Below are positions 11,700-25,847 of a stretch of DNA of 26,002 nt, piece after piece (the stretch's first letter is position 1; the number at the start of each line of letters is the position of its first letter). A model generated the notes under the pieces. That model was not told the origin of the DNA. It saw only the letters and a list, made by a program, of their open reading frames with translations, and searched no databases. Source of the stretch: a virus; IMG/VR virus record IMGVR_UViG_3300007760_000924, positions 1 through 26,002 of that record; one strand, 5' to 3'. The translations under genes were made by a program, and so were the position numbers.

Positions 11700-12097
11700 G
11701 CCTTCTCCGGCGCTGCGAGCAGCGCGGCCGCGAGCGCTTCGATTTCGGTGTCTCCGTTGAACCACTGGAGCGTCGACGCGCCCTGGGGCCCGCGGTCGGG
11801 GCCAACGATCACCACCTCCCACTCTCCAGCGAGGTTGCACCAACGGGTACTGGTGAGCGGAGCATTCCACGCCCGGCGCACCTGGGGCAGCAGAGACAGC
11901 GCCGTGAGTTCGTCGGTGAGGTCGGGGCGGGCGTCTCCGAAGTCGGGGCGGCTGCGGAGGCGGGGGCCGGCGACCTGAGTCCACCCCTTCTCTGTGAATC
12001 GGTACCGTCGCCCCCGGGGACCCGGAAGAGTGAGCGCGCCGAGCGCCCACGTCCAGCGCGCAGCGAGGGCGTCGAGGTCGATGTTCATCGTGGTCAT
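11696..12097 (-). CDS. Hypothetical protein
   Basis: 133 residues from ATG at 12097 (a second ATG at 12088 is possible). Helical N-terminus (LDALAARWTWALGAL), a middle segment RYRFTEKGWTQVAG, and a C-terminal beta part (WEVVIVGPDRGPQGASTLQWF) ending in an alanine-rich helix. No motif recognised. It is held by 4-base overlaps on both sides in the leftward operon. CTCGAG is absent across this gene, unlike both flanking genes, so it may have entered separately. Confidence 0.55.
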   Translation of the reverse strand: MTTMNIDLDALAARWTWALGALTLPGPRGRRYRFTEKGWTQVAGPRLRSRPDFGDARPDLTDELTALSLLPQVRRAWNAPLTSTRWCNLAGEWEVVIVGPDRGPQGASTLQWFNGDTEIEALAAALLAAPEKA

Positions 12098-13152
12098 GCT
12101 GTCTCCGGCCCTTCCCCGGGGAGCGCACCCCCGGCAGCGTGGATCGCGACCTCGAGTCGCGTCCGAATCTCGTCCTCGGTCTTCCCGCCCTTCAGGCAGT
12201 GGACCACGAACCCGCGGCGGATGTACCGACCGCCGATCTCCGCCTTGCAGAGGACCGCCGCCGCCTCGAGCTTCCCGAGGCTCTCGTCCGAGGGAACGGA
12301 TTCGACCTCGACGTCGACCGCCTCGGGGTAGAGGAGGGGATCGGCGGGTTCCAGGTCGACGGACTCGTCCGAGACCCCCGGTCCGGGGAGGAGCTTCACT
12401 CCGACCGCCTCGGGCAGGACGTGTCCCTGCGCGGCCGCCTCGACGCGCCCCATCAACTCGGGGACCGTCTCCGCGGTGTGCAGCGAGAGGATCGGGAGCG
12501 GCGTCCGCGCCCGCTGACCCCCACCTCGGGGGGTCGAGATCCGCTGCATGGTCACGCGCAGCTCGAGCGGGATCGTCCAGAGCTGCGGACCGAGCCCCGC
12601 GAGTCGCCGGATGAACCCGGACAAGTTGATGATCGACCACTTCGACCCGGTCGCGATCATCGTCGCCTCCGTCGCTCCTTCACCCTTCAAGATGACGTAG
12701 AGACGTCCGTTCGCTTTGCACGTCGGCTCCGCTGGAATGTTCCTCGAGCGATCCGCGCGCGCCGGCGTCCACCCCGGATCGTGGTTGTTCGGGTTCCACT
12801 CGCATCCGCGACAGCCCCCATCGACGGGACGGAAGTTCCCCGCGGGGTCGCGTCGGAGCGCCTCGGTACCGTTGTCCCCGTGGCACCAGAGCATCGAGGC
12901 GCGATAGCTCCGCATCTTCGACGAGAGGATCTGCTCGGGCTCCAGGGGGGCGAGCGTGCATGCCAGAGCGATCGGTCGCTGACCGTGCTCGTCGCGCGAC
13001 CGGACGATCGCGGCGGGCGGGATGGGCGGACCGTCCGTCAGCCTGAAGTGGTCGAGCTTGCGCGGGGCGCCGTTCCGGCCGCCTCGATCCCCGATCGCGA
13101 GCTTGCGGACGCGGGGGAGGGTCGGGGCGCCGTCGGTCAGTCCGTGGATCAC
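12094..13152 (-). CDS. Gp3/RDF-like phage protein with four-Cys metal site
   Basis: 352 residues with GTG start at 13152 (GTGA overlap with the upstream gene). Early residues PRVRKLAIGDRGG and RKLDHFRLTD are followed by cysteines 90, 114, 117 and 145 (LWCHGD, GCRGCEW, TCKANGRLYVIL) and then ATGSKWSIINL. The segment IRRLAGLGPQLWTIPLELRV completes a pattern I associate with the Gp3-like recombination directionality factor family (phiC31 Gp3 type). In that family, the founding member turns serine-integrase integration into excision. Many relatives occur in phages without a known integrase, so a general replication or recombination role is equally possible. The C-terminal third ends in a helical region with RRGFVVHCLKGGKTEDEIRTRL. 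The assignment is from pattern memory, not a search. Confidence 0.5.
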   Translation of the reverse strand: MIHGLTDGAPTLPRVRKLAIGDRGGRNGAPRKLDHFRLTDGPPIPPAAIVRSRDEHGQRPIALACTLAPLEPEQILSSKMRSYRASMLWCHGDNGTEALRRDPAGNFRPVDGGCRGCEWNPNNHDPGWTPARADRSRNIPAEPTCKANGRLYVILKGEGATEATMIATGSKWSIINLSGFIRRLAGLGPQLWTIPLELRVTMQRISTPRGGGQRARTPLPILSLHTAETVPELMGRVEAAAQGHVLPEAVGVKLLPGPGVSDESVDLEPADPLLYPEAVDVEVESVPSDESLGKLEAAAVLCKAEIGGRYIRRGFVVHCLKGGKTEDEIRTRLEVAIHAAGGALPGEGPETA

Positions 13153-13460
13153 GAGAAGACCCCGACGACCTCGACGAGCCCGCCGAACGTGGGGACGAGG
13201 AAGACCCGGGCGTCCAGCGTCGGTCGGGTCGGGTCGATGCAGAGACACGCCTCCCGACCGCAGCCCGTCTCGCGCATGTCCGGGCAATCGACACTCGGCC
13301 GACGCTCGCGCAGCTCTCCTCGAGCAGCTCGAGCGCGCTCTCGCATGCTCTCCGCGTCGTCGTCGCGTCCTTCGAGAGCAGCTCGTCGCGCTGCGTCTCT
13401 CGCGTATCGCTCTGCGAAGACGAGATCGTCCTCGCTGTCGTTCTCGAATCGGTTCGTCAT
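13149..13460 (-). CDS. Small Cys-containing protein, first gene of leftward operon
   Basis: 103 residues from the ATG at 13460, with GGAG eight bases upstream; a longer frame to 13508 is unlikely because it has no comparable site. The N-terminal two thirds is a strongly charged helix (FAERYARDAARRAALEGRDDDAES and following). Then CPDMRETGCGREACLC supplies four cysteines that could hold a metal, and the end is hydrophobic (ARVFLVPTFGGLVEVVGVF). As the promoter-proximal gene opposite a Cro-like regulator it is expected to be expressed early. No family recognised. Confidence 0.6.
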   Translation of the reverse strand: MTNRFENDSEDDLVFAERYARDAARRAALEGRDDDAESMRERARAARGELRERRPSVDCPDMRETGCGREACLCIDPTRPTLDARVFLVPTFGGLVEVVGVFS

Positions 13461-13540: not shown

Positions 13541-13786
13541 ATGATCAGCATGAACAAGCGATCTCCGGCCGAGCGCCGTCTGAAGAAGTGGTCAGCAGAA
13601 ACCGGGCGCCCCCTCGAGGACGTCTCGAGGCACCTGGGGATCTCGCGCTCGACGCTGACCTCGTGGCTCGCCGGACAGACCGAGCCGAAGGTATCGCAGG
13701 CAGTCGCGATCGAGGAGCTGACCGGCGGCTTCGTGCGGCTCTCCCACTTCGTCCCGAAGGGCCGGGGGGCCGGGGCGGGTGGCTGA
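13541..13786 (+). CDS. Cro/CI-like helix-turn-helix regulator
   Basis: 81 residues from ATG at 13541 (a second ATG at 13550 gives 78). Residues 26-46 form a helix-turn-helix: EDVSRHLGISRSTLTSWLAG, with the recognition helix SRSTLTSW. The N-terminus is basic and the C-terminus short, so no peptidase or oligomerisation domain is present. This size fits a Cro-type or helper repressor rather than a full CI. It lies between a divergent operon and the O-like replication gene, as cro lies before O in lambdoid phages. It probably binds the repeats just upstream. The ribosome binding site is poor. The next gene starts at GTG 13779, inside its last codons. Confidence 0.7.
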   Translation: MISMNKRSPAERRLKKWSAETGRPLEDVSRHLGISRSTLTSWLAGQTEPKVSQAVAIEELTGGFVRLSHFVPKGRGAGAGG

Positions 13787-14606
13787 CGTCCAGCTAGAGA
13801 ACGGGCACATCCGGATCGCGAACAACCTGTTCCGTGCGCTCTCGTGCGCGAAGCTGACGGACACGCAGCGGCGGATCATGCTCGAGGCGACCTCTCGTCA
13901 GTTCGGGTGGTCGAACCCGTCGCAGCCGCCGCGACCGTGGTCCGCCGGCGGGACGGACATGTCCCGCTCGGTCGGGTGCGGCCGCACGACCGCGGCGGAG
14001 GTTCTCGGACAACTCGTCGAGCTTCGGATGCTCGTCCGGGTCGCGCCACAGACCTACCTCCTCGTGAAGGACTTCGACCGCTGGCGGTGCGGCTTCCACG
14101 TCGATCCGGACCGCGTTCACTGGACCCCGAAGGAGGGGCATCGGAGGGTGTCCCCGCTTCAGAACAGTGTCCCCGCTTCAGGACAGGGGGTGTCCTCGGG
14201 CGAGGACAGTGGGTGTCCCGAGCCGAGGACACTGAACACCCCGCAAACCCGCACCACGACGGCATCTCCGGCGAGCCTAGAACCACTAGAGAACCAACGG
14301 AGAGAGAGAGAGAACGCGCGCACGCGCGATCGACGATGGAGCGTCTACGACTTGCGCTCGCATCTCGGAGACTCGCGGATGACTCCGCCGGCGATTCAGG
14401 CACCGCAGTGGGTCGGGATCATCGAAAAGAACACCGACGAGCAGATCGACGCGACACTGAAACTCTGCGCGAAGAAAGACCGACCGCTGTCGTACTTCCT
14501 CGCGCTTCACGACGAAGAGGGTAGGAGACTCGACGATGATGGAACGAAGCAGAAGAAGCGACCCGGAGCTTCTCGGAGGCGCCCTCGGGGCCACGTCCGA
14601 AGCTGA
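13779..14606 (+). CDS. Lambda O-like replication initiator
   Basis: 275 residues, GTG start at 13779 overlapping the Cro-like gene. Residues 8-45 (NGHIRIANNLFRAL, LTDTQRRIMLEATSRQFGWS) match the start of the phage replication protein O winged-helix domain, followed by helices with GRTTAAEVLGQLVELRMLV. This domain binds origin iterons as a dimer. The middle (124-151) is a low-complexity linker encoded by four 19-bp iterons, exactly where lambda carries its origin. The C-terminal half has IIEKNTDEQIDATLKLCAKKDRPLSYFLAL, likely the part that contacts the helicase loader. The next gene, a DnaC-like loader, overlaps the end of this one by 71 bases. O plus a DnaC-type loader instead of lambda P is a common alternative pairing. 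Confidence 0.75.
   Translation: MADVQLENGHIRIANNLFRALSCAKLTDTQRRIMLEATSRQFGWSNPSQPPRPWSAGGTDMSRSVGCGRTTAAEVLGQLVELRMLVRVAPQTYLLVKDFDRWRCGFHVDPDRVHWTPKEGHRRVSPLQNSVPASGQGVSSGEDSGCPEPRTLNTPQTRTTTASPASLEPLENQRRERENARTRDRRWSVYDLRSHLGDSRMTPPAIQAPQWVGIIEKNTDEQIDATLKLCAKKDRPLSYFLALHDEEGRRLDDDGTKQKKRPGASRRRPRGHVRS
14148..14231. other. Candidate replication origin: four 19-bp iterons inside the O-like gene
   Basis: Four copies of a hyphenated palindrome TGTCC-N9-GGACA: GTGTCCCCGCTTCAGAACA at 14148-14166, GTGTCCCCGCTTCAGGACA at 14167-14185, GTGTCCTCGGGCGAGGACA at 14190-14208 and GTGTCCCGAGCCGAGGACA at 14213-14231. Start-to-start spacing is 19, 23 and 23 bases. Downstream (about 14270-14335) comes a less GC-rich stretch, a GA dinucleotide run and an alternating CG/CA tract that could ease unwinding. 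The number, size, symmetry and position are those of lambda ori. Confidence 0.75.
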
Positions 14607-15393
14607 AGCCGTCCGGCCGATGCCGCTCCGAGAGCGGCCGGAGCCGGTCGAGTGTCGCGGGGATTGCGGCGAGCTCGTCGAGCCCGTCGAGATCACTCGC
14701 CAGGGGCGGGCGCTCTGGATCACCCGTCGGATCTGCGATCACTGCCGGGTCCGCGAGGGCGAGAAGGAGCAGGCGAGCGCCCACTCCGTCGGGCTCGCGC
14801 GCCGAATGAAGGTGATCCCGCTCCACCTCCGCGAGACTCGAGGAGGAAAGCCGGTCACGTTTGAGACGCTCGATCGCGACGCGGACAACCGGCGGATCCT
14901 CCGCCAGGTCGAGCGGTGGCAGCCGATCTTGGGCTCGGTCATCATCTCCGGGCCCGTCGGCTCGGGGAAGTCCCAGGCGCTCGCGTGTCTCTGTCGGAGG
15001 CTCGTCGAGCGAGGCTCCGCTCCGCTCTGGACGTCGGAGCAAAAGTTGATGCGGATGATCCGCGAGGACTTCGGCCGCCGCGGGTCCACGCTTCAGCGGG
15101 ACATCTGCGACGCGTCGATCCTCTTCCTCGACGATCTCGGCGCCGCAGCTCGAACCGATTGGGAGCGTCGCATCTTCGAGGAGATTCTCTCCGACCGGTC
15201 CGACGCCAGGAAGCCGATCCTCATGTCGTCCAACTACTCGCTCGACGACCTCCGCGACCTGTACTCCGGGGCGTTCGACGAGCGGAACTCCGACCCGATT
15301 CGGGGGGAGCGCATCGTCTCGAGGCTCCGTCAGATGGTCGGGGATCGACAGTGGACCCTCAAGGGGCGGGACCGGAGGAGGGCGGGGCGATGA
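14536..15393 (+). CDS. DnaC-like AAA+ helicase loader
   Basis: 285 residues. Cysteines 40, 44, 67 and 70 (VECRGDCGE, ICDHCR) suggest an N-terminal zinc-binding part. The AAA+ core follows: Walker A GPVGSGKS (139-146), Walker B ILFLDDLG (195-202), sensor I MSSNYS (230-235) and a basic GERIVSRLR helix (257-265) where the arginine finger of DnaC/IstB-type ATPases lies. Expected role: load the host DnaB helicase at the origin bound by the O-like protein. Two ATG codons (14536, 14539) are equally possible. The gene overlaps the O-like gene by 71 bases and is coupled to the next gene by ATGA. The shorter N-terminus, compared with the lambda P system, and the zinc site fit phage and ICE loaders. Confidence 0.85.
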   Translation: MMERSRRSDPELLGGALGATSEAEAVRPMPLRERPEPVECRGDCGELVEPVEITRQGRALWITRRICDHCRVREGEKEQASAHSVGLARRMKVIPLHLRETRGGKPVTFETLDRDADNRRILRQVERWQPILGSVIISGPVGSGKSQALACLCRRLVERGSAPLWTSEQKLMRMIREDFGRRGSTLQRDICDASILFLDDLGAAARTDWERRIFEEILSDRSDARKPILMSSNYSLDDLRDLYSGAFDERNSDPIRGERIVSRLRQMVGDRQWTLKGRDRRRAGR

Positions 15394-15803
15394 GCTGCTC
15401 CCCGACGTGCGGCTATTGGTCCGCCGACCGGATGTATTGCTGTCTGGGCGGGACGCTCGGCCCAGGCGGGGCGGCGGAGACGCCCGAGACGACGCGCGCC
15501 CGGAGGAGGGCATCGCGCATCCGGCGGACTCGTGCGCTGCTCCGCGCGCGCCGGACTCTACTCACCGCAGCGATCGAGGGTCCGGGCTCCCCGCCGGGAT
15601 GGTCGACCCGGACCAACGACCAGGGATCGGTGAGACACTCCGACGATCTCGACTATGCCGCTGCGGAGATCGAAGCGGAGATCCGCCGGGGTCCGCCCCT
15701 GTTCCCCGCGTGGCTCCGGGCTCGAATCTCCCGGCTGCGGGACGCGCGCTACCGCCGGAACATGGAGGAGGCGGATCGGGCCTGGAGGGCGGCGACCCGA
15801 TGA
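15390..15803 (+). CDS. Small basic protein with N-terminal cysteines
   Basis: 137 residues; ATG at 15390 overlaps the stop of the loader gene (ATGA). Cysteines 3, 7, 17 and 18 (CSPTCGYW, YCCLGG) start the protein. An arginine-rich helical region (RARRRASRIRRTRALLRARR) and a second helical pair with DYAAAEIEAEIRRG and RLRDARYRRNMEEADRAW follow. Nucleic-acid binding is plausible given the charge. No family recognised. Composition lacks the CTCGAG abundance seen in the flanking loader, as in the next two genes. Confidence 0.55.
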   Translation: MSCSPTCGYWSADRMYCCLGGTLGPGGAAETPETTRARRRASRIRRTRALLRARRTLLTAAIEGPGSPPGWSTRTNDQGSVRHSDDLDYAAAEIEAEIRRGPPLFPAWLRARISRLRDARYRRNMEEADRAWRAATR

Positions 15804-15883
15804 TCCGCCGCATCCTCGGCATCGACAGCGCGCGCCCGGGTTTATTGCAAGGCGGTGGACAATTGATTCAAACTAATTGTTGA
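15800..15883 (+). CDS. 27-residue ORF, possible truncated RuvC-like gene start
   Basis: ATGA overlap with the previous stop, then MIRRILGIDSARPG, which recalls the first strand of RuvC-like resolvases (LGxDP-x-x-x-x-G). The frame enters an AT-richer stretch after about 14 codons and ends at 15883, inside the -35 region of the next promoter. This may be a gene start cut off by insertion of a promoter-plus-gene cassette, or a leader peptide. Confidence 0.3.
   Translation: MIRRILGIDSARPGLLQGGGQLIQTNC
15859..15880. repeat. AT-rich inverted repeat overlapping a -35 box
   Basis: ACAATT (15859-15864) and AATTGT (15875-15880) form 6-bp arms with a 10-base spacer. It lies directly against the -35 hexamer at 15880-15885. 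Such a site would suit a repressor that blocks polymerase. The AT-richness stands out strongly from the surroundings. Confidence 0.4.
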
Positions 15884-15932
15884 CGGGGCAGGGATAAGGT
15901 CATACTCTTTCCCTGGGTCGAGCGAACGACCC
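15880..15932 (+). promoter_or_regulatory. Sigma70-like promoter with leader hairpin, shared element (copy 2)
   Basis: -35 TTGACG (15880-15885) and -10-like TACTCT (15903-15908) are 17 bases apart. The inverted repeat GGGTCG-AGCGAA-CGACCC (15915-15932) follows, then GGGAGA and the ATG at 15947. The block 15903-15932 matches the leftward 6947-6918 block with one mismatch. It drives the short genes starting at 15947 and probably the terminase-side genes. Confidence 0.65.
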
Positions 15933-15946
15933 GGGAGACAGAGACC

Positions 15947-16147
15947 ATGACGACGCGCACCGCACAGAAGATCAGCAACGCCGCCGCCAACCTCATCCGC
16001 TTCAACGGGGGCACGGTCGAGTTGGCCGAGGGTGCGTACCGGGTCCGGCTGCCCAAGGCCGCGAAGTGGGTTCGCAGGAACACCTACCGCCTCGACGGGT
16101 TTACGATCTCGTTCCTCGCGTCGGGTTCAGTGGTGGCGCTGCCATGA
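15947..16147 (+). CDS. Small hypothetical protein behind the shared promoter
   Basis: 66 residues, ATG at 15947 with GGGAGA upstream. An N-terminal helix (TAQKISNAAANLIRF) is followed by a strand-rich basic part (TVELAEGAYRVRLPKAAKW, YRLDGFTISFLASGSVVAL). No family recognised; a small nucleic-acid binding or regulatory protein is plausible from size and charge. It is the first gene after a strong-looking promoter and is coupled to the next gene by an ATGA overlap. Confidence 0.6.
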   Translation: MTTRTAQKISNAAANLIRFNGGTVELAEGAYRVRLPKAAKWVRRNTYRLDGFTISFLASGSVVALP

Positions 16148-16416
16148 GTGGCCACGACTACAGAGTGTGCCCGAAGTGCGGCGGGTCCTACCGCCCGCCC
16201 TACGGGTGCTGCCTGCCGCCATCTAGACCCCGCAAACCCGGCCGCCCCGCCCTCTCCCCCGAGGGCAAGCGGCGGCGCTGCGGCCCCTTCTCCCTGCCGC
16301 CCGACGTGGCGCGCAGGCTGGACGACGAGACGAACAAGTCCGCAGCGGTGGCCGAGGGGCTGATGCTGCTGTGGGCGCAGCGAGGAGAGACGCGATGTCG
16401 GAAGCCGTCCGAGTGA
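16144..16416 (+). CDS. Small protein with zinc knuckle and ribbon-helix-helix-like C-terminus
   Basis: 90 residues from ATG at 16144 (ATGA overlap). VCPKCGG and YGCCLPP give four cysteines (9, 12, 22, 23) at the N-terminus. A Pro/Arg-rich linker (RPRKPGRPALSPEGKRRR) leads to GPFSLPPDVARRLDDETNKSAAVAEGLMLLW, a strand-helix-helix pattern like ribbon-helix-helix proteins. A small DNA-binding regulator is the best guess. The last residues are basic. Start chosen by the overlap rather than by the longer open frame. Confidence 0.55.
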   Translation: MSGHDYRVCPKCGGSYRPPYGCCLPPSRPRKPGRPALSPEGKRRRCGPFSLPPDVARRLDDETNKSAAVAEGLMLLWAQRGETRCRKPSE

Positions 16417-16431
16417 CGAAGGGATGACGCT

Positions 16432-16887
16432 ATGTCGGAGCTGACGACGATCGGAGGACACGCGGACAAGCGAGAGATCCGTCGTCGGCTGTCCATCGTC
16501 GAGCGCTCGATGACGGAGATCGGATGGTCCGTCCGTCTCGCGGAGCAGCTCGCGGAGCAGCTCGGCGTCTCGAAGCGAACGATCTATCGCTATCGGAGCG
16601 AAGTACTTGAGGAGCTCGCGAACGCGTATCGCGGAGCGGACGTCGAGGAGGAGCGCTCCGAGTTCGTGGTTCGACTCCACGCGCACCAGCGAGCAGCGCT
16701 GAAGGCGGGGAAGTTCGGCCCCCTCGCTGCGATGATGTCGATCGAGGCGAAGGTCCGCGGACTCGACAAACCGACCCAGGCCCAGAAACTAGTGATCGCT
16801 GCTCTCTCGCCGGATGAACTGGCGGAGAAGCGGCGGGCGATTGCGGCGCGGCTGCTCGCTGCGAATGGAGGACACGATGACGAATGA
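16432..16887 (+). CDS. Candidate terminase small subunit (helix-turn-helix)
   Basis: 151 residues. Residues 35-56 (RLAEQLAEQLGVSKRTIYRYRS) form a clear helix-turn-helix. VRLHAHQRAALKAGKFGPLAAMMSIEAKVRGLDKP follows, a helical hairpin of the type seen after the DNA-binding part of phage small terminases, then a charged C-terminal helix. In that role it would recognise the packaging site and recruit the large subunit, which is encoded three genes downstream at 18515. The intervening genes make this less certain, and a transcription factor is the alternative. The helix-turn-helix contains a short tandem repeat (LAEQLAEQ). The next gene starts within the last codons. Confidence 0.5.
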   Translation: MSELTTIGGHADKREIRRRLSIVERSMTEIGWSVRLAEQLAEQLGVSKRTIYRYRSEVLEELANAYRGADVEEERSEFVVRLHAHQRAALKAGKFGPLAAMMSIEAKVRGLDKPTQAQKLVIAALSPDELAEKRRAIAARLLAANGGHDDE

Positions 16888-17293
16888 GCGGATCACCGAT
16901 TGGGAGCCTCTCGCCCAGGCGAACCAGCGCGAGATCGCGAAGCTGACGAAGGATCTCGCGGACGCGGAGAAGCTCGTCGAGATCCTCGCGAACACGGCGG
17001 GCGAGCTCGAGCAGCGGATCGAGGAGCTCGAGGTCGCGGCGGCGGATCTCCACGCAGCGAACGGGAAGCTGATCGGGCTCTTCCTCTCGCTGAGGGACTC
17101 GATCGACGCCCTCGTCTCTGCGTTCGCGACCGGTCTCGGCCCGGGTCAGGTCGTCGCCTTCGTCCGGCGGCATGTCGCGGACGAGGCGACGAAGCGCGCC
17201 TCTCGCGTCTCGGGTCGCGCGGTTTCCTCGCGGCGGGCGGGGCTCGGGGTCATCCCCGGCGGGCTGACGTCGAAGGACGGGGGCGCGGTTTGA
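16877..17293 (+). CDS. Coiled-coil protein
   Basis: 138 residues from the ATG at 16877, with GGAGGA upstream inside the previous gene. Residues 12-65 are a continuous heptad-rich helix (ANQREIAKLTKDLADAEKLVE and onward to ELEQRIEELEVAAADL). A second helix (IGLFLSLRDSIDALVSAF) and a basic C-terminus follow. No enzyme motif. It may be a structural adaptor or an accessory to the RuvC-like gene, with whose start its stop overlaps (TTGA). Longer open frame to 16814 rejected because the ribosome binding site fits the internal ATG. Confidence 0.6.
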   Translation: MTNERITDWEPLAQANQREIAKLTKDLADAEKLVEILANTAGELEQRIEELEVAAADLHAANGKLIGLFLSLRDSIDALVSAFATGLGPGQVVAFVRRHVADEATKRASRVSGRAVSSRRAGLGVIPGGLTSKDGGAV

Positions 17294-17814
17294 CCGTCGT
17301 CCTCGGGCTCGACCCGTCGGAGAAGCGCGTCGGGCTCGTCGTCTACGATACGGGGCTCCGGGTCGCCCTCGCGTCCGCGGTCCTGCCGCTCGAGGATGCG
17401 CTCCGAATCGTCCGGGCCGGCCAGGTCGGGGCGGAGGATCCCGTTCGCATGCGCGGCGACCTTCTCTCCGCCCGCTGGTCCGTCGTCGTCGTCGAGCGGT
17501 TCAGGTCCCAGGGGAAAATCAATTCCGACATCATCCGAGGGATCGAGGCGAGCGGGATGCTCTTCGAGGCGGCTCGGGCGGGGATCGTCGAGGGGGGCTC
17601 CGTCGATTGGCTCTTCCGGCTCGACGTCTGCCGCGAGCTCCACGTCTCCGGCAAAGGGAAGGACTCGCAGATCATCGATCGATGTTGCGAGATGCACGGG
17701 GGTTCGCGCTCCGTCGCGCGGGGATTGAAGAAGTCCCCCGGTCCGCTCTACGGGGTCTCCGGGGACGCCTGGCAAGCGCTCGGAGCGGTCCTCGCGTGGA
17801 GCGGGGCGGGATGA
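17290..17814 (+). CDS. RuvC-like Holliday junction resolvase
   Basis: 174 residues with a TTG start whose TTGA overlaps the upstream stop. Motifs fit the RuvC/RNase H fold: VVLGLDPSEKRVGLVVYD (Asp8), VVVVERF (Glu69), and SGDAWQALGAVLAW (Asp159) in the final helix, corresponding to the D-x-x-x-A-x-G/A-x-A ending of RuvC. The expected role is cutting branched DNA from recombination or replication before packaging, as done by phage resolvases. KINSDIIRGIEASG (76-89) is the helix that follows the Glu strand in this family. It is directly coupled to the next gene (ATGA). The TTG start should lower translation relative to neighbours. Confidence 0.75.
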   Translation: MTVVLGLDPSEKRVGLVVYDTGLRVALASAVLPLEDALRIVRAGQVGAEDPVRMRGDLLSARWSVVVVERFRSQGKINSDIIRGIEASGMLFEAARAGIVEGGSVDWLFRLDVCRELHVSGKGKDSQIIDRCCEMHGGSRSVARGLKKSPGPLYGVSGDAWQALGAVLAWSGAG

Positions 17815-18518
17815 CTGCGGCGCTCTATGTAGACGTCGAGCGGGGTCCCTATGCGGGGATCCTGGGGTCGGATCAGTGCTGGGGAGTCGATCGAGACGCG
17901 AAGCGCTACAGCGGCCCGGGTCCGGTCGTCGCGCATCCCCCGTGCGGCCCCTGGGGCCGGCTGGCCCACCTCTGCAAATATCAGGATCCGGAGTGCGGGA
18001 TCCGCGCCGTCGAGCAGGTGCGGGCCTTCGGAGGCGTCCTCGAGCATCCGCGAGACTCTCGTCTGTGGGCGGAATGCGGACTTCCCAGGCCCCAGGATCC
18101 GCCGTTCTTGATTCGGCCGGACGAGTTCACGATCCAGATCGATCAGTGCCGATGGGGTCACCCGTGCAAAAAAACGACTTGGCTTTTCTTCGCAGGCATC
18201 GATCCGGCCGCGCTGCCACCCCTTCCGCCCTGGCGGGAGCCGACTCACTGCATCGACGACGGGGCCGCTCGTCGGGACGGGCGACCGAGTCGATTCAAGC
18301 GACTTCCACATAAAGAGGCACACCTCACGCCGGGCCCGTTTGCGGAGTGGCTTCTCGCGGCGGTGGGTTATGTCCCGAGCGGTATTCCGACGCATGTAAT
18401 CGACACGAACGCGAAGCATAAAAACCAAGGCACTGGCCAGCCCCACCTAGCAAAGACGCGACGCCACCTCACCCCCCCCGCGTTTGCCCGATGGCTCATC
18501 GAGTCGGTGTCGGGATGA
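17811..18518 (+). CDS. Phage PPC-motif protein with duplicated C-terminal unit
   Basis: 235 residues from an ATG at 17811. VVAHPPCGPWGRLAHL (39-54) carries a Pro-Pro-Cys that recalls the catalytic loop of cytosine-C5 methyltransferases. RAFGGVLEHPRDSRLW (71-86) and QCRWGHPCKKTTWLFF (112-127) complete a pattern I know as a common uncharacterised phage protein, sometimes annotated as a methyltransferase. No S-adenosylmethionine-binding motif is visible, so activity is doubtful. The C-terminus holds two related units, THCIDD to FAEWLLAAVG (145-186) and THVIDT to FARWLIESVS (194-233). Runs of seven A (about 18168) and eight C (about 18472) lie within the gene. It sits between the resolvase and the terminase, each joined by ATGA overlaps. 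The region coding the second unit is less GC-rich. Confidence 0.65.
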   Translation: MTAALYVDVERGPYAGILGSDQCWGVDRDAKRYSGPGPVVAHPPCGPWGRLAHLCKYQDPECGIRAVEQVRAFGGVLEHPRDSRLWAECGLPRPQDPPFLIRPDEFTIQIDQCRWGHPCKKTTWLFFAGIDPAALPPLPPWREPTHCIDDGAARRDGRPSRFKRLPHKEAHLTPGPFAEWLLAAVGYVPSGIPTHVIDTNAKHKNQGTGQPHLAKTRRHLTPPAFARWLIESVSG

Positions 18519-20059
18519 CCCCAGCTCTCGCCCTTCCTCCCGACCTCCTCGCGGATCTCGACGAGCTCGAGGAGCTCGAGCGGGCGAATCCGATCTCTCG
18601 GTTCATGCTGAACGAGCCCGGAGTCGACGGCGGGGCGTCCCCGAAACAGCTCGCATACATCCTCGACCCGTCGAAGAACCGGGCGATCCAGGGGGCGAAT
18701 AAGACCGGGAAGACCGCCGTTTGGGCGATCGACATCATCGAGGTGTGCCTCGGATGGCACCCGACGAGGTCGCCAGGCGGGACCGTCGGAGACGTCCCGT
18801 TCCCGTGCAAGGTCTTGTGCGTCGTCGCGGACTTTCAGGGGGGCTATGCGGAGGATGTCTGCGAGGTCTTCCGCGAGTACCTCCCCCCCGGCGTGCTGCA
18901 TGATCGATGCACCTACGACGAGACGAACGGATACAGGGTCGGGCAGAAGCCGGAGATCCGATTCGCGAACGGGTCGCGGATCATCTTCCGAGCCGGGACG
19001 CAGGGGATCCGCGCGATTGCGGGCGTCAAGGCGGACATGGTCGCAATCAATGAGCCCCCGGAGCAGAGGGTTTGGGGCGAGGTCACGCGAGCGGCCGCCT
19101 TTGGCGACGCGCCGATCTGCGCGGTCTTCACGCCCGTGGACGAGCGCCGGAAGGACGGGAGCAAGAGGAACACCTCGGGCGACCTCCATTGGCTCCGCTG
19201 CATCGTCGAGGGCGATCCGTTGACCGGAGCCCCGCCAACGGCGGAGTGGTCGATCCACCGGATCCGCCTGACCGTCGAGGACTGCCCCCACCGGACCCCC
19301 GAGTCGATTCGCACGCAGATCGGCAACGTCCCGCCCTGGGAGTACGAGCAGCGGATCAATGGAGATTGGGAGTCGGTGAACACGAACCGCCGGCTCTCCG
19401 CCTGGACGCCGGAGAAGATCGTCCCCGCGGACGTCGGACCCCTCGAGGGTTGGTTCTCGGCGGAGAGCGCCGCGGCGAAGTGGGGTCGGCGGGTCTTCGT
19501 CTCCCCGATCTACCTCGCGCTCGTCGGGGATTGGGGCGAGAAAGCCGGGGCAACGGCGTGGGGGGCCGACGCTTTCCAATTCGTCAAGACGGGGACGGAG
19601 CGGATCGTCTACATCCGCACGATCGCGGAATACGTCAGCGAGAGCGCCTCCGATGAATTCGAGGACGCGGACGGGATCGAGGACATGCTCGCGGGCGTCG
19701 GGCTGAAGCTCTCGGACATCGATTACGCGTGGGGCGACGTCAACACGGCGGGGAAGAGCAAGGCGGGGCGGAAGCTGAACGACATTCTGACGGAGATCCT
19801 CGCGCGGAAGATGGGGCACAACCCGTATCACCCCGCGCTCGTCGTTCGCCCCGTCCTGAAGGGTCCGGGCTCCGTTGATCTCGGGCTGAAACGGACGAAT
19901 CAGAAAGCGAGACGCGGTACGCTCGCGGTCAGCGAGAATTGTCCGCGACAGATTCGAGCCATCGAGAGATGGGAAGGAGCGTCGGACGATCACGAGCACC
20001 TGATCGACCGGATCCGCTATGCGGTGATGTCGATCGAGCGAGAAGCGGAGCATCTGTAA
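18515..20059 (+). CDS. Terminase large subunit
   Basis: 514 residues from the ATG at 18515, which overlaps the preceding stop (ATGA); an upstream ATG at 18491 would add eight residues. The ATPase domain has a Walker A of the terminase type, QGANKTGKTA (59-68), an adenine-side strand CKVLCVVADF (98-107), and Walker B ADMVAINE (173-180) with Glu180 as catalytic carboxylate. The nuclease domain (RNase H fold) shows VGDWGEKAGATAW (Asp339), AWGDVN (Asp408) and HLIDRIRYAVM near the end. The enzyme powers DNA translocation into the prohead and cuts concatemers. The portal gene follows with its ATG touching this stop codon. Length is normal for the family. Confidence 0.9.
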   Translation: MTPALALPPDLLADLDELEELERANPISRFMLNEPGVDGGASPKQLAYILDPSKNRAIQGANKTGKTAVWAIDIIEVCLGWHPTRSPGGTVGDVPFPCKVLCVVADFQGGYAEDVCEVFREYLPPGVLHDRCTYDETNGYRVGQKPEIRFANGSRIIFRAGTQGIRAIAGVKADMVAINEPPEQRVWGEVTRAAAFGDAPICAVFTPVDERRKDGSKRNTSGDLHWLRCIVEGDPLTGAPPTAEWSIHRIRLTVEDCPHRTPESIRTQIGNVPPWEYEQRINGDWESVNTNRRLSAWTPEKIVPADVGPLEGWFSAESAAAKWGRRVFVSPIYLALVGDWGEKAGATAWGADAFQFVKTGTERIVYIRTIAEYVSESASDEFEDADGIEDMLAGVGLKLSDIDYAWGDVNTAGKSKAGRKLNDILTEILARKMGHNPYHPALVVRPVLKGPGSVDLGLKRTNQKARRGTLAVSENCPRQIRAIERWEGASDDHEHLIDRIRYAVMSIEREAEHL

Positions 20060-21735
20060 TGAACACGATCGAGCAGCCGACGGAGTCCACGCCTCCGCTC
20101 GCTCCCGAGAGCCGACCCGACGATCGTCTCGCTATGCAGGAAGCGACGCGACGACTCGCGTTCACCGACGGACGCTGGTCGAAGCTCGGCAAGGATCATC
20201 TGACTCTTCAGCTCCGCGAGAAGCGATCGATGCTCGTCGGCGCCCCGAACATCTCCGAGAACGCGGTCAAGCAATTCTCGACCGAGATCGCGGTCGTCTA
20301 CGACGAGACTCCGGGGCTGTCGCACGAAGACGCGGAGGGGCTCGAGCGACTCGAGACGCAGCTCGCGAACTGCGGTCGGTGGGAGATCGCCCAGCAGATG
20401 CAGCGCGATCTCGAGGTCGTGAACCAGGCGCTCCTCTATTTCTCGTGGTCCGACTCCGGCGCGGAGGGGCGCCTCGACTGCTGCGCCGCGCGGATGGATC
20501 GCGTCTTCTTCGACCCGATGCCCGGGGACTCTCGTCGTCCGGGTCGCGTCTACTGGTCACGTCAGCGACACGTCCTGAAGAAGAACGGGAAGACGTCCGT
20601 CGAATGGGTGTGGGACGTTTGGGATGTTCGCCCGAACCCGTCGAAGGGCAATCCGGCCGCTCCGCCGCTCGAGGACGGAGAGCCCGAGCGACCGTACTTC
20701 CGGATCCTCGACGCGAAGCTCGAGAACGACTTGACGCAGCAATTCGTGAAGCCGGAGCAGTGGCGCGGAGCTGCGTTCCCGTGGAGGCGAGAGGACTCGA
20801 CGCCCGTCCTTCCGTTCGTCCTCTATCACAAGCAGATCCCCGCGGACGGAGCGCTTCGCGACCCGTGGAGCGGCGCGGAAGTCATCTACGGAACGCTTCA
20901 GGGCTGCGTCGATTGGACGAATCTCGATCACGCGACGATGCGCGCGAGTTGGGACGTCCGCGGCATCATCGGCGGTCGTCTTCAGGGGACGTCTCCGGCG
21001 ACGAGCGTGAAGGGGTCCGAGCCGTCTCCGGTGCTGACGATTCCCGACGACCCGACGGGGATCAAATACGTTCGCCACGACGGAGAGGGGGCCGCGTCAA
21101 CGTTTCAGTGGGGATCGCCCGTGGACATCGAGGCTCACGAGCGGGTGTTTCATCGGAAGTCCGCGCGTCTCGCGATTCACTACGGATTGAGCCCCGCGGA
21201 CGTCTCCATCGAGACTTCGGGCCCGATGTCCGGCGCCGCGTTCTACGTCTCGAGAGAGGGGAAGCGGAAAGCGTCCGCGCGTCGCGTTCCGAGTCTCCGT
21301 CGCGGTGATGTCGAGTCCTTCGTCGTCGTCTCCGCGATCCTCCGAGACAAGGGGGTCAGCGTCCCCGAGTCCGGCTATCGGATCGAGTACGGAACGATCG
21401 AACTCTCGACGAAGGAGCGTCGCGAGATCACAGAGGGCGGGCTCCTCGAAGTCGAAGCGGGCATCTCGACGCGTCTCGAGCTGCGACAGCGACTCAACCC
21501 CGGCGAGACTGCGTCGGAGTCCTTCGTCGCGCTCGCTCGAGCGGAGATCGAGCAGAAGATCGAGAGCGCGTCCTCGACGCCGGAGGGGCTCGAGATCCTC
21601 TCGCAGCTCGTCGCAGGCGACCTCGACGCGGACGAGGCTCGGCAGATGCTTCTCGAGCTGGACGTCGCGCCCGCGGAGCCCCCGCCGGCCTCGGACGAAG
21701 AGGAAGAGGAGGTCGTCGAGAATGAGCTTCCGTAG
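20059..21735 (+). CDS. Portal protein
   Basis: 558 residues; ATG at 20059 shares its A with the TAA of the terminase. N-terminal helical and strand pattern (RWSKLGKDHLTLQLREKRSM, NISENAVKQFSTEIAVVYDE), central FDPMPGDS and WDVWDVRPNP regions, DLTQQF, and a long C-terminal half containing HYGLSPADVSIE (near 380-390). Its last section is strongly acidic (DEEEEEVVENE). Such size, order and the acidic C-terminus are typical of dodecameric portals that form the head vertex for packaging and tail attachment. The acidic C-terminus overlaps the start of the muramidase gene by 14 bases. The assignment rests chiefly on position after the terminase and overall architecture. Confidence 0.8.
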   Translation: MNTIEQPTESTPPLAPESRPDDRLAMQEATRRLAFTDGRWSKLGKDHLTLQLREKRSMLVGAPNISENAVKQFSTEIAVVYDETPGLSHEDAEGLERLETQLANCGRWEIAQQMQRDLEVVNQALLYFSWSDSGAEGRLDCCAARMDRVFFDPMPGDSRRPGRVYWSRQRHVLKKNGKTSVEWVWDVWDVRPNPSKGNPAAPPLEDGEPERPYFRILDAKLENDLTQQFVKPEQWRGAAFPWRREDSTPVLPFVLYHKQIPADGALRDPWSGAEVIYGTLQGCVDWTNLDHATMRASWDVRGIIGGRLQGTSPATSVKGSEPSPVLTIPDDPTGIKYVRHDGEGAASTFQWGSPVDIEAHERVFHRKSARLAIHYGLSPADVSIETSGPMSGAAFYVSREGKRKASARRVPSLRRGDVESFVVVSAILRDKGVSVPESGYRIEYGTIELSTKERREITEGGLLEVEAGISTRLELRQRLNPGETASESFVALARAEIEQKIESASSTPEGLEILSQLVAGDLDADEARQMLLELDVAPAEPPPASDEEEEEVVENELP

Positions 21736-22282
21736 CGCGCTCGACTTCGTCCTCGGGCGAGAGGGGGGATTCGTCGATCATCCGTCGGACCCCGGCGGCG
21801 CGACGAACTTCGGGATCACCCAAGCGACGCTCGACGCGTGGACCGACTCGCGCATGTTCCCGCGGAAGAGCGTTCGAGACATCGAGCGGAACGAACTCGA
21901 GAGCATCTACCGCGAGCGCTATTGGGCCCCCGTCCAGGGGGCGACGCTCGACCCGAGACTCGCTCTCGTCCTCTTCGACTCCGCCGTTCTCTTCGGGGTC
22001 GATGACGCGATCCCGTGGCTTCAGTCCGCGCTATGCGAGGCGAGCGCCTCGGAGATCGTCGTTGATGGAGACCTCGGCCCGAAGACTCGAGCAGCTCTCG
22101 ACGTCGTCCTCGAGCGATCGGACGGAGCCGTCGGGCTCTGCTGCATCGTCGTCCTGTATCGACGGAATCGACATCGACAGCGAGCGCGAACGCATCGACC
22201 GAGTCGCGACTTCCTCGACGGATGGATCGCGCGGACCGATCATCTCCTCGCAGAGCTTGAACGGATCGCTCCTCCCGAATAG
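21722..22282 (+). CDS. Endolysin, GH108-type N-acetylmuramidase
   Basis: 186 residues. The N-terminus ALDFVLGREGGFVDHP followed by DPGGATNFGIT is the GH108 signature. Glu14 is the expected catalytic acid. LESIYRERYWAPV (59-71) belongs to the same fold. The C-terminal half with GDLGPKTRAAL is the peptidoglycan-binding part that usually accompanies this domain. It cleaves the glycan backbone of the cell wall for lysis or as a virion-associated lysozyme. No signal peptide is visible, so access to the wall would need a holin, and a holin-like gene follows at 22509. Position between portal and scaffold is unusual. The starting ATG lies within the end of the portal gene. Confidence 0.85.
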   Translation: MSFRSALDFVLGREGGFVDHPSDPGGATNFGITQATLDAWTDSRMFPRKSVRDIERNELESIYRERYWAPVQGATLDPRLALVLFDSAVLFGVDDAIPWLQSALCEASASEIVVDGDLGPKTRAALDVVLERSDGAVGLCCIVVLYRRNRHRQRARTHRPSRDFLDGWIARTDHLLAELERIAPPE

Positions 22283-22329
22283 GGTGGGCGCATGAGACGA
22301 GAACCCGGGGGCGGGGCGAGGTAGCGCGC

Positions 22330-22530
22330 ATGTCCGCGACGATCCCTACCGTGTCGAGCGAATCGAAGCCGCCGACCTCGCTCCGACGTCTCCGCGGGGG
22401 CATCTGCGCGCGCGAGGAGTGTCTCGACGCTCCGCGGAGTCGAGGAGTGATCCTCCCGACTCTGGACCGACTCGACGGGATCACATCTGGACTGATCCGG
22501 CGGGATCGATGGAAGACGACGAGCGAGTAG
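22330..22530 (+). CDS. Small ORF between endolysin and holin, uncertain
   Basis: 66 residues from ATG at 22330, with GGCGAGG upstream. It carries CAREEC and a basic C-terminus. It overlaps the holin start by 22 bases in a different frame. No family recognised and no coupling signal at its start, so it may not be translated. The rest of 22283-22508 holds nothing else I can support. Confidence 0.35.
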   Translation: MSATIPTVSSESKPPTSLRRLRGGICAREECLDAPRSRGVILPTLDRLDGITSGLIRRDRWKTTSE

Positions 22531-22832
22531 CCGAGCGAATCGCTCGCTCGACGGAGCAGCTCTCAGACGCGCTCGAGCATCTCGCGAACGAAGTCGGAGA
22601 GATGCGACCGGCGGTCGCGCGGATCGACGAGTACGTTCAGGATCAGCGCTTCGAGGACGAAGTCGAGCGTCGCGTTGACGAGCGGATGGAGAAGCACAAG
22701 TCGAAGCCCGTCGAGAAGTCCGATCGCGTCGTTCTCGCGCTCCCGAAGGGTTGGATCAGCGCGAAGATGATCGGCGGGGTCCTCGCGCTCCTCGGGACTC
22801 TCGCGGGGATCCTGAAGGCGATCGTCGGGTAG
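22509..22832 (+). CDS. Holin-like protein (coiled coil plus one transmembrane segment)
   Basis: 107 residues from ATG at 22509 (a GTG at 22419 is an alternative). Residues 6-65 are a long charged helix (ERIARSTEQLSDALEHLANEV, RFEDEVERRVDERMEKH). A single hydrophobic segment closes the protein (ISAKMIGGVLALLGTLAGILKAIVG, within 83-107). The layout resembles XhlA-type holin accessories: an N-terminal coiled coil with a C-terminal membrane helix. It lies one gene after the muramidase, which supports a lysis role: it would permit the endolysin to cross the membrane. A different membrane-tethering function is possible. Confidence 0.6.
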   Translation: MEDDERVAERIARSTEQLSDALEHLANEVGEMRPAVARIDEYVQDQRFEDEVERRVDERMEKHKSKPVEKSDRVVLALPKGWISAKMIGGVLALLGTLAGILKAIVG

Positions 22833-22850
22833 CACTCGATCACGTCTCGC

Positions 22851-22880
22851 TTGCGCGCGTCGGCGCGTCGCGGTTACGCT
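22851..22880 (+). promoter_or_regulatory. Candidate promoter before the scaffold/capsid genes
   Basis: TTGCGC (22851-22856) and TACGCT (22875-22880) are spaced by 18 bases. The intergenic gap 22833-22933 is the largest in the head region, so a separate start for high capsid expression is plausible. The match to consensus is weak. The nearby GGTTACGCTCT also occurs at 13481-13491. Confidence 0.3.
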
Positions 22881-22933
22881 CTTCGCATCCCGCTTCGCCA
22901 CGTTGGGCGTAAAACACGAATGGGAGACGACTG

Positions 22934-23512
22934 GTGCCACCCGAAGAAGATCCGGCGACTCCGCCGCAGACCCCTCCGCAGCCGCTCCAGCCGCCGAGCA
23001 CTCCGACGCAACCGGGCCCCGGTCCGGTTCCTTACGAGAGGTTCAAGTCCGTCCGCGACGACTATCGCGCTTTGATGGAGGAGCACGCCTCCACGAAGCA
23101 GAAGCTCGAAGCGCGCGGATCCTGGCTTTCTCCCGAGGACCACGAGAGCGCCGTCGAGAGCGCCGTGAAGAAAGCCCGCCGGTCGGGCGATCTCGCGGTT
23201 CACCTCGTCGGGGCGGGAGTGGAGCGCGACTCGCGGGAATACAGATTCCTCGCGAGCGAGTTCGACGACGTCGAGCCCGACGGATGGGGCGCGAAGCTCG
23301 AGGAGCTGCGCGAGCAGTCCCCCGGATTCTTCCCGAGTGTCGCCGGTCAGCCGCCGCCGACCCGACGAACGAACCCCGAGTCAGGAACCCGCAGCCCTTC
23401 GACCCCGAGCGGGGGCGTCTTGACCCCGGAGAAGATCCGAGCGATGACGCCCGACGAGTATCTCGCCAACCGCGAAGAGATCCTGAAGAGCATGGGGGCC
23501 CCGACTCGCTGA
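22934..23512 (+). CDS. Scaffold-like protein
   Basis: 192 residues starting GTG at 22934, with GGGAG eight bases upstream. A proline-rich N-terminus (PATPPQTPPQPLQPPS) is followed by a charged helix (YERFKSVRDDYRALMEEHASTKQKLEA) and a second helical region. A Ser/Thr/Pro-rich linker leads to a short helical C-terminus (PDEYLANREEILKS). Small, helical, low-complexity proteins directly before the capsid gene are generally capsid scaffolds. They guide prohead assembly and are then lost. No protease was found, so release would be intact or by another factor. Position supports the call more than sequence does. Confidence 0.6.
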   Translation: MPPEEDPATPPQTPPQPLQPPSTPTQPGPGPVPYERFKSVRDDYRALMEEHASTKQKLEARGSWLSPEDHESAVESAVKKARRSGDLAVHLVGAGVERDSREYRFLASEFDDVEPDGWGAKLEELREQSPGFFPSVAGQPPPTRRTNPESGTRSPSTPSGGVLTPEKIRAMTPDEYLANREEILKSMGAPTR

Positions 23513-23530
23513 TCAGCGAGAAGATCCATC

Positions 23531-24442
23531 ATGGCGAACGAAGTCTACGTATCCAGCTCGAGCGACCTCCTCCAGACCGAAGTTTTGGCGAAGGAACTCG
23601 AGATGCTCCTCCACACGCGTCCGCATCTCCGCGGGCTCTGCACCTACCGCGGCGACACCCGCGGGACCGCGACGGACACGATCAAGGTCCGCCAGGTCGA
23701 CGACGACGACGTCGCGGAGAGCGTCGCGGAAGACGCGAGCCCGACCGGCAACACCGCGATCACGGATTCGAGCTACACGCTCGTCCCGTCGCGTCGCGTG
23801 ATCAAGCGAGAGATGTCCGACTACATGTCGAACATCTCCGATCTCGGGCTTCACAACCCCGTCGGGCTCGCCGCGTACAACTTCGGCGCGGTGATGCGCG
23901 CGTTCGACGCGATCGTGACCGCGCTCTTCCCGAGCTTCACCGGCTCGCAGGGGACGAGCGGCGCCGCGCTGACGTGGACCGACGTGCTCCTCGCGAAGCA
24001 GGTCCTCCGCGAGCGCGAGAACGGCGCGGATCTCGTCTTCGTCGGTCACTCCGAGCAGTGGAGCGACATCGAGAACGACATCGTCGGGCTCGCCGGTCCG
24101 CAGCAGTACATCGAGGGGATTCAGGGACTCTCGCTCGACGCGAAGGGCCCGAACTTCGTCGGCGCCGTCGGTCGGATGGAGTTCTTCACGTCGAATCAGG
24201 TCACGCAGTCCGGCGGCGATCACCGCGGAGCGCTCTTCGCGCGCGGCGGCATCGCCTACGCGGAAGGGTCCCCGAACCCCGTCTCGATGGGCTCGCGCAT
24301 CTTCGCCCCGGGCGGCGTCGTCTACAGCGTCTTCGACATCGACGGCGACAAGGCGAACCAGCTCCTCTGGACGAACTACTTCGTCGCCGCCGGGATCACC
24401 CAGGCGGGGATGGGAATCACGCTGCTCTCCGTGGACGACTGA
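23531..24442 (+). CDS. Major capsid protein
   Basis: 303 residues, ATG at 23531. The composition and pattern (N-terminal helix SDLLQTEVLAKELEML, RGTATDTIKVRQVDDDD, SSYTLVPSRRVIKREMSDYM, and a C-terminal beta part with ALFARGGIAYAEGSPNPV and ANQLLWTNYFVAAGI) fit a HK97-fold coat protein. This fold is expected for tailed phages and was not independently proven. The protein has no long N-terminal delta domain, which agrees with the presence of a separate scaffold gene just upstream. Only 18 bases separate the genes. The ribosome binding site is modest, so strong transcription may come from the candidate promoter at 22851. Confidence 0.75.
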   Translation: MANEVYVSSSSDLLQTEVLAKELEMLLHTRPHLRGLCTYRGDTRGTATDTIKVRQVDDDDVAESVAEDASPTGNTAITDSSYTLVPSRRVIKREMSDYMSNISDLGLHNPVGLAAYNFGAVMRAFDAIVTALFPSFTGSQGTSGAALTWTDVLLAKQVLRERENGADLVFVGHSEQWSDIENDIVGLAGPQQYIEGIQGLSLDAKGPNFVGAVGRMEFFTSNQVTQSGGDHRGALFARGGIAYAEGSPNPVSMGSRIFAPGGVVYSVFDIDGDKANQLLWTNYFVAAGITQAGMGITLLSVDD

Positions 24443-24482
24443 TCGACTGATCGTCGTCCTCGAGAGCTTGTAGGAGAGCTAC

Positions 24483-25448
24483 ATGCCGCACGAACCGACT
24501 CCGAGCGCTCGTCCTGTCGAGGACGGGTTCGCGACCGCGCCGAACCCGTTTCAGAAGAAAGAACGAGACGTTCGGGGTCGGGTCGATGCCGCGACCGATT
24601 TCAAGTTCCATCTCGCGCACCGCGTCGGAGACTGGATCGTCGATGTCGAAGGGAATCTGATCCCCGATCTTCGACGGATCGCGCATGCCCCCGGCGTGAA
24701 CGCGACGAATCGTCAAGACAACTTCCTCGGCACCGCGGTCCAGCACCAGAACGCCGGGTTCGTGTTCGTTCCGCGCGACGCTCTCGGGCCCGGGTCCGAC
24801 TATATGCGCGTCTTCGTGAACAAGAAGGGGAAGCCGGTTCATCGGACCGTCTTCGAGAAGCCGATCCGACGTCAGTCCGGGCGAACGAAGTTCAGGACCG
24901 ATCGCGAGAGCTGGCGCGACTTCTGCTTTCTCCTCCGCGACGGGACCCACTCCGGGTTCAAGCTCGAAGCTCCGCGCCCGGAGCACATCGAGGGACTGCT
25001 CGTCGCTGCGAGGAAGAAGCGCGCTGCGCTGCGCGCCCCGAGCACCGAAGACCCCGCGAAGCGTGCCGAGTACGCGCTCCGCTGCGAGATCGTCGAGAAG
25101 CAGCTCGCGACGCTCGAGCGCGAGTCCTCGATCGCGATCGACATCTACGGAGAGATGCAGTCCGTCGAAGTGACCGCAGACGAAGCGGTCGCCGGGCTCT
25201 CGTCCATCCGCGAGAAGCGTCTCCGAGCCGAGGGGAAGCTCCCGAGTCTCGAGGACGAAGCTCGAGCGCGTCGTCTCGAGGACGAGCGACGTCGCGTCGC
25301 AGCTCTCGAGGAGGAGGAAGAGCGGAAGCACGCGGAGCGCGCGAAACTCGAAGAGAAGAAGCGACTCGCGGCGGAGAAAAAGCGCGCAGCCGCCGCGAAG
25401 AAGGGGGCGACGGGACCCGCGAAGGATCCGCCGCCGCCCCCGGCATGA
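24483..25448 (+). CDS. Structural protein with C-terminal coiled coil, unknown role
   Basis: 321 residues from ATG at 24483 with GGAGAG upstream. Residues 30-150 look like a folded domain (FKFHLAHRVGDWIVDVEGNLIP, NAGFVFVPRDALG, RTVFEKPIRRQSG). The C-terminal third is a strongly charged, Ala/Lys/Glu-rich helix (ALEEEEERKHAERAKLEEKKR) ending in a proline-rich tail. Directly after the capsid gene, it may be a minor head or internal virion protein. No family recognised. Coupled to the next gene by an ATGA overlap. Confidence 0.6.
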   Translation: MPHEPTPSARPVEDGFATAPNPFQKKERDVRGRVDAATDFKFHLAHRVGDWIVDVEGNLIPDLRRIAHAPGVNATNRQDNFLGTAVQHQNAGFVFVPRDALGPGSDYMRVFVNKKGKPVHRTVFEKPIRRQSGRTKFRTDRESWRDFCFLLRDGTHSGFKLEAPRPEHIEGLLVAARKKRAALRAPSTEDPAKRAEYALRCEIVEKQLATLERESSIAIDIYGEMQSVEVTADEAVAGLSSIREKRLRAEGKLPSLEDEARARRLEDERRRVAALEEEEERKHAERAKLEEKKRLAAEKKRAAAAKKGATGPAKDPPPPPA

Positions 25449-25831
25449 TCCGCGAGATCCGCCTCCCGATCGGCGCGTCGGTCCGACTGTGGCCGGACGG
25501 TAGCTACACCGTTCCGAACCCCGATGGGTCCTCGACCTACGTCTGCGACGCCGTCGTCGCCGTCGAGGACGCGTTCGCCCGCGCCTCCGTGTTCGACTTC
25601 GCTGCGAACGAGTACATCGAGGCCCGGGAGGCGGCCGACGAGCTGCGCCGCCGTCGCCACGAAGGGATCGACCGGATGCACGGGGTCGATCACCGACCCC
25701 TGAAGCCCGTCGCCCCGTTCTCCGTGTTCCTCGAGCAATCCCGCGCGCTACGAATCAAGCGAGAGCGGGACGCGACGTGTTACAACGACTCGACCCGACA
25801 CGAGCCCGGCAGGCGCCGGGCCGATCTCTGA
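25445..25831 (+). CDS. Small head-region hypothetical protein
   Basis: 128 residues. ATG at 25445 overlaps the preceding stop (ATGA). IREIRLPIGASVRLWPDGSYTVPNPDGSS forms an N-terminal beta region. A helical middle (FDFAANEYIEAREAADELRRRRHEG) and a basic tail follow. Likely a small virion component by location; no family recognised. Confidence 0.55.
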   Translation: MIREIRLPIGASVRLWPDGSYTVPNPDGSSTYVCDAVVAVEDAFARASVFDFAANEYIEAREAADELRRRRHEGIDRMHGVDHRPLKPVAPFSVFLEQSRALRIKRERDATCYNDSTRHEPGRRRADL

Positions 25832-25847
25832 CCGGAGACGATCCGAC

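Follow-up and report, generated by a model that had tools for sequence, protein, structure and literature searches.

Palindromic TGTCC iterons inside an O-like initiator gene: a probable lambda-type replication origin in an uncultured phage

The replication genes

The DNA considered here (hereafter the window) is an IMG/VR record of 26,002 bases. It contains, at 13779-14606 on the plus strand, a gene for an O-like replication initiator of 275 aa, whose product matched PF04492 (Phage_rep_O) over residues 4-102 with an E-value of 4.8e-8 and 33.9 bits, compared to a curated cut-off of 28.7; among the PHROGs, phrog_16826 (E 2e-10) was matched, and the hits comprised O-like and DnaD-like families. 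An AlphaFold2 model (pTM 0.70) predicted a three-helix plus wing fold for the DNA-binding domain, with pLDDT values of >90 in the core as well as in the helix of residues 69-81 and the two-strand wing following it. The start of the recognition helix of this winged-helix domain (residues 66-75; 13974-14003, plus strand) was assigned from the model and from covariation (see below). CRP-type winged helices were the nearest solved folds in Foldseek (probability ~1, weak, E >1e-3), and a PDB sequence search with the O DNA-binding domain gave no convincing match.

Upstream, and overlapping the O-like gene by 8 nt, is a gene for a Cro/C1-type HTH regulator (13541-13786, plus strand; PF01381 HTH_3, E 8.2e-8). 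The adjoining ORF, for a DnaC-like helicase loader (14536-15393, plus strand; phrog_50, E 1.6e-31; IstB_IS21, PF01695, over cut-off), overlaps the O-like gene at its 3' end; the start codon of the loader ORF is uncertain. A gene of the terminase type lies to the right of the replication genes, and a lysozyme of the glycosyl hydrolase 108 family is encoded further along; the other strand carries genes for a recombination-directionality-factor-like protein (12097-13287, minus strand; PF18897, Gp3-like), a PD-(D/E)XK nuclease and an exonuclease of the DnaQ type (RNase_T). Judged by its predicted products, the O-like gene with its setting is a phage replication module, and the directionality-factor-like gene suggests a temperate life style. 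A sign change of the GC skew near 13-14 kb was not used as evidence, since it coincides with the switch in gene direction.

Single-protein scans of viral contigs yielded no close homologs of the O-like and loader proteins, and a scan with the terminase found two relatives, neither of which extended to the O gene. A sequence from another metagenome (L093) was 100% identical to positions 15532-26002 only and continued for about 3 kb beyond; the phage sequence in the window is thus incomplete on the right.

Iterons and adjacent sequences

Within the O-like gene, at 14149-14231, are four copies of an 18-bp symmetric unit, TGTCC-N8-GGACA, all given here on the plus strand: TGTCCCCGCTTCAGAACA (14149-14166; one mismatch, ...AGAACA), TGTCCCCGCTTCAGGACA (14168-14185), TGTCCTCGGGCGAGGACA (14191-14208) and TGTCCCGAGCCGAGGACA (14214-14231). 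A preliminary description of this DNA had reported four inverted-symmetric copies at this place, and their start-to-start spacing of 19, 23 and 23 bases was borne out, as was their location in an O-like gene, the enclosing ORF matching PF04492 over the cut-off. The unit had been described as a 19-mer with an N9 centre; the N9 pattern did not match at the array, even when two mismatches were allowed, and was replaced by N8. With up to one mismatch, the N8 pattern matched the four array sites and no other site in the window. Dinucleotide shuffles of the window contained on average 0.62 sites at the same tolerance, and none of 100 reached four; synonymous-codon shuffles of the O-like gene, with the protein kept, contained at most three sites (n = 5000; none with four). 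The array was also the best same-arm palindrome cluster of the whole window.

Copies 1 and 2 form a tandem of 19-mers which are almost the same (95%); in copies 3 and 4 the half-sites are kept and the N8 centres differ. The start frames of the four copies within the gene are 1, 2, 1 and 0. Since successive copies fall in different frames, the repeat is one of the DNA and not of the peptide; a constraint on the DNA is likewise indicated by the fact that the copies have only the half-sites in common, except for copies 1 and 2, which are alike throughout.

The preliminary description had also pointed to a lower-GC stretch, a GA run and a CG/CA tract after the iterons, all of which are real. The lowest-GC 40-mer of the gene (14274-14313), which ranks among the lowest 0.5% of the window, is a candidate DNA-unwinding element, although it is only mildly AT-rich, with a GC of 0.50 compared to 0.65 for the gene as a whole. 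It overlaps a purine run of 16 nt, GGAGAGAGAGAGAGAA (14299-14314, plus strand), and is followed by an alternating purine-pyrimidine (CG/CA) tract (14314-14328), the sole such tract of at least 14 nt in the window. In a set of 33 loci, including the window, which conforms, the lowest-GC 40-mer of the gene was situated on the 3' side of the array, at a distance of up to 120 bp, in 21, compared to 4.9 expected by length (p = 3e-10), and upstream of the array in nine, ties placing some loci on both sides.

Comparison with lambda and other phages

In lambda (NC_001416), gene O extends from 38686 to 39585 and four 18-mers are annotated as iterons, at 39034, 39054, 39078 and 39101, that is, with spacing of 20, 24 and 23, beginning at codon 116; in the window the spacing is 19, 23 and 23, beginning at codon 123. 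Both have an O-type initiator with four dyad iterons inside its gene, after the N-terminal, DNA-binding domain, and both have a short first interval, followed by intervals of 23-24 (lambda) or 23 (window). A purine-rich stretch is found 3' of the iterons in each case (AAAAGAAAAAAGAAAAGA in lambda, GGAGAGAGAGAGAGAA in the window), and the next gene encodes a helicase loader, which is lambda P in the one and DnaC-like in the other. The resemblance to lambda ori in symmetry, number and position, which had been proposed from inspection of the sequence, therefore holds, and so does the difference in iteron sequence: the half-site is TGTCC instead of ATCCC. The window differs from lambda further in its GC-rich setting and the additional CG/CA tract.

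For lambdoid phages, it has been published that individual iterons are bound by the O protein and that unwinding takes place in the AT-rich region (PMC7466680). The O-type genes of lambda, P22 and phage L each possess different iterons (PMC8022706). Like the O-like gene of the window, gene 18 of Salmonella phage L and gene 18 of P22 hold their own iterons; both phages have a gene for a DnaB-type helicase, in contrast to the DnaC-like loader of the window (PMC8022706). The repeats of phage L start with TGTCC, as do those of the window, but they are six direct 11-bp repeats, TGTCCAACGGA, without dyad form.

Initiator genes with an internal palindromic array, mostly with 19-24 bp spacing, were also found in Staphylococcus phages 77 and SP120 and in Caldibacillus phage CBP1; 77 and SP120 were detected as relatives of the initiator of another scanned locus (L082), not by PF04492. 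Their half-sites are TTGAC, TTAAC and GTAAGC, instead of TGTCC, and AT-rich repeats follow. TGTCC-type iterons were not found in the initiators of 77, SP120, CBP1, Butyrivibrio phage Ceridwen and Lactobacillus phage KC5a, which have other repeats, nor in those of Bordetella phage PHB09 and Microcystis phage Mvi-Yong1342-1. Phages 77 and SP120 have a DnaC-like loader downstream, as in the window.

An uncultured phage (L016; IMG/VR 3300025674_000286) has a relative of the O-like protein with 27% identity and TGTCC iterons like those of the window. A CG tract starts 81 nt after its last iteron, and then comes an ORF which on sequence inspection resembles a DnaC-type loader. The intervals between its recognised copies (16, 44 and 22) are unlike those of the window, and its O ORF comprises 503 codons, compared to 275 aa. 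The middle part of this ORF (960-2471) looks like an out-of-frame translation, with an alternative ORF at 1081-1911; a nested gene, a gene overlap or an error in the sequence is possible. The pairing with a DnaC-type loader, from which a new initiator-iteron pair had been concluded, is thus an ordinary one, occurring in 77, SP120 and apparently L016.

The distance from the last recognised iteron to the start of a CG/CA tract of at least 14 nt is 83 nt in the window, 81 nt in L016 and 63 nt in L036, whereas the background rate in GC-rich loci was 0.0037 per 120 bp; this recurrence in three GC-rich members was spotted after the fact. The tract is possibly a topological or Z-DNA-prone boundary.

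Iteron arrays in O homologs selected by protein

With a profile from four O domains, 80 O genes were obtained from viral contigs, which, together with the window, gave 53 non-redundant genes. Each gene was searched de novo for a palindromic array with any half-site and was compared with eight synonymous shuffles of itself. In 41 of the 53 genes an array scored above all eight shuffles, and 37 of these arrays had at least three copies; no array above the gene's own shuffles was found in the remaining 12. The first interval was 18-20 in 20 of the 37 arrays and later intervals were 22-24 in 71 of 81; this peak was not built in, since any value from 16 to 30 was accepted for the two array-finding intervals. 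The first copy began at codons 96-143, with a median of 106. The half-sites included TTACC, TTGCC, TTAGC, TTATC, GTATC, GTTGC, TAAGC, TGTCC and others. Persistence of the repeats in O-like homologs had been proposed as a check at the outset: geometry and position of the array do persist, but the half-site mostly differs, as seen in relatives at about 20-30% identity, of which L016 (27%) shares TGTCC. Conserved geometry and position with a drifting half-site are as predicted for an origin which is read by a diverging DNA-binding domain.

Recognition helix and half-site

For 38 O genes, including lambda, half-site similarity was compared with residue identity in 8-residue windows along the DNA-binding domain, with correction for the identity of the remaining domain; the permutation test models phylogeny only in part. 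Residues 66-73 were the best of 92 windows (partial r 0.26), and residues 68-75 gave a permutation p of 0.0045. In an earlier column-by-column version, which included the iteron-encoded linker, the result was less clear (p = 0.065 for the helix versus the remaining columns). Where the helices of close pairs are near-identical, the half-sites were the same or nearly the same; L123 and L126, on the other hand, are 75% identical over the domain and differ in the helix, and their half-sites are TTACC and GTTGC. Half-site identity would thus appear to map to the recognition helix. Ser or Thr at position 71 (window numbering) was present in 22 of 34 TGTCC initiators versus three of 34, which can serve as a lead only, as the two groups differ in family.

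The predicted origin and alternative explanations

The array of the window is very probably a replication origin of the lambda/O type with a divergent half-site. This is supported by the PF04492 match, the lambda-like geometry, the geometry in homologs, the covariation of helix and half-site and the low-GC stretch on the 3' side. As far as can be read from the sequence, a tailed phage appears to initiate DNA copying within the gene of its own initiator. Such an origin belongs to a known kind and is not a new mechanism. By analogy to lambda, the O-like protein would probably bind each 18-bp palindromic iteron as a dimer, with TGTCC in either half read by the recognition helix. Occupation of all four iterons could give an O-some-like complex, which would melt the purine-rich stretch of lower GC immediately 3' of the array. 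The C-terminal part of the protein might then recruit the DnaC-like loader encoded by the next gene, which would load the host DnaB helicase. Dimer binding, melting, recruitment of the loader, helicase loading and initiation at this site are all suggested by the biology of lambda.

Serial palindromic sites are typical of operators, a gene for an HTH regulator is located directly upstream, and some TGTCC arrays fall outside initiators (see below); the array could therefore be an operator or silencer, at which the Cro/C1-type protein, or O itself, shuts off transcription through the O and loader genes, and no origin. This is improbable, because no other TGTCC-N8-GGACA site (up to one mismatch) is present in the window, including the region of the start of the HTH-O-loader operon, because many phages whose half-sites differ have this geometry at the same codon range of their O genes, and because the half-site covaries with the recognition helix of O. 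Even less credit is due to replication slippage in a GC-rich, repeat-rich linker, where the copies would have persisted since the linker tolerates anything. The tandem copies 1 and 2 and the low complexity of linker regions would fit, but copies 3 and 4 with their differing centres, the start frames of the four copies and the 5000 synonymous shuffles do not; moreover, it is the half-site and not the whole unit which recurs across groups with GC contents of 30-74%. Least probable is a centromere-like or res-like site for partition, resolution or recombination that is located in an initiator gene by chance, in spite of iteron series being typical also of partition sites and of the directionality-factor-like gene (PF18897) nearby, since the scanned genes of the window included no partition gene (one ORF matched a ParB-like PHROG weakly and by its HTH only), the number, length and spacing of the copies are nearly those of lambda ori, and a stretch of low GC comes after the array, like that of an origin.

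On the lambda-type reading, coordinates can be assigned to a predicted replication origin of an uncultured, GC-rich phage, and a defined initiator-iteron pair is available for testing.

Searches with the DNA motif

Viral sequences were scanned, on DNA alone, for pairs of TGTCC-N8-GGACA sites 0-12 bp apart, with the reversed motif as a control. Pairs were present in 89 viral stretches, versus nine with the control motif, and their spacing peaked at 21-23. Of 67 non-redundant groups, 33 had the array inside an initiator-like winged-helix ORF, at codons 51-165 in 31 of the 33 and mostly at 81-165. Because the initiator profile was built iteratively from the scanned loci, E-values from its later rounds are inflated; already in round one, array-covering ORFs accounted for 38 of the 41 matches among all nearby ORFs. 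Independent PHROG scans agreed, with 40 of 81 proteins matching phrog_270 and 35 matching phrog_678. About half of the groups were outside recognisable initiators, and the covering ORFs of L048 and L010 were tail fibres by family scan, their arrays hence being unrelated; therefore, the pair motif alone is no proof of an origin.

The initiator and its iterons had been considered a new pair, yet the TGTCC half-site is not unique to this phage and recurs in dozens of viral groups. Nor is TGTCC uniquely favoured, as pairs of TTACC-N6-GGTAA were found in a comparable number of stretches (80), inside O or initiator-like genes in 43 of 63 groups; TGTCC is one of several recurrent half-sites. A search for paired palindromes in DNA thus recovers phage initiator genes with either motif.

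What may be novel is a readable initiator-iteron code. We consider it conceivable, though somewhat short of probable, that winged-helix initiators and the iterons in their own genes form coevolving pairs, in which the first helix turns set the half-site, TGTCC-N8-GGACA and TTACC-N6-GGTAA recurring across distant families; the window would represent one such pair, and the conserved CG/CA tract after the unwinding stretch would be an extra of GC-rich members. If so, origins in uncultured phages could be found from DNA alone and specificity could perhaps be predicted. Natural initiator-iteron pairs should offer a means to test how O proteins read iterons.

Several other arrangements were observed in these scans. 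A pair of the control motif, ACAGG-N8-CCTGT, was inside an initiator-like gene of L103 (1838-2677) and represents another class of half-sites. The initiator genes of L037, L076, L060 and L073 each contained a second TGTCC cluster, separated from the first by about 100-180 bp; L112 likewise has two clusters, in an ORF of 351 aa for a putative initiator. In L009, L012, L034, L050, L058 and L086, related small ORFs (about 60-110 aa) overlap TGTCC arrays of mostly 18-21 bp spacing; no initiator was found at these arrays, the ORFs tested being without family match, and they are possibly intergenic origins or operators. A three-copy scan of bacterial genomes yielded 13 stretches, three of which had an initiator-like ORF at the array or close to it. 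Tandem TGTCC-N8-GGACA arrays with a period of 21-22 bp and up to nine copies occurred in Bacteroidota (Prevotella, Segatella, Porphyromonas and Paludibacteraceae; L106, L108-L111, L113 and L116), most of them without a recognisable initiator at the array.
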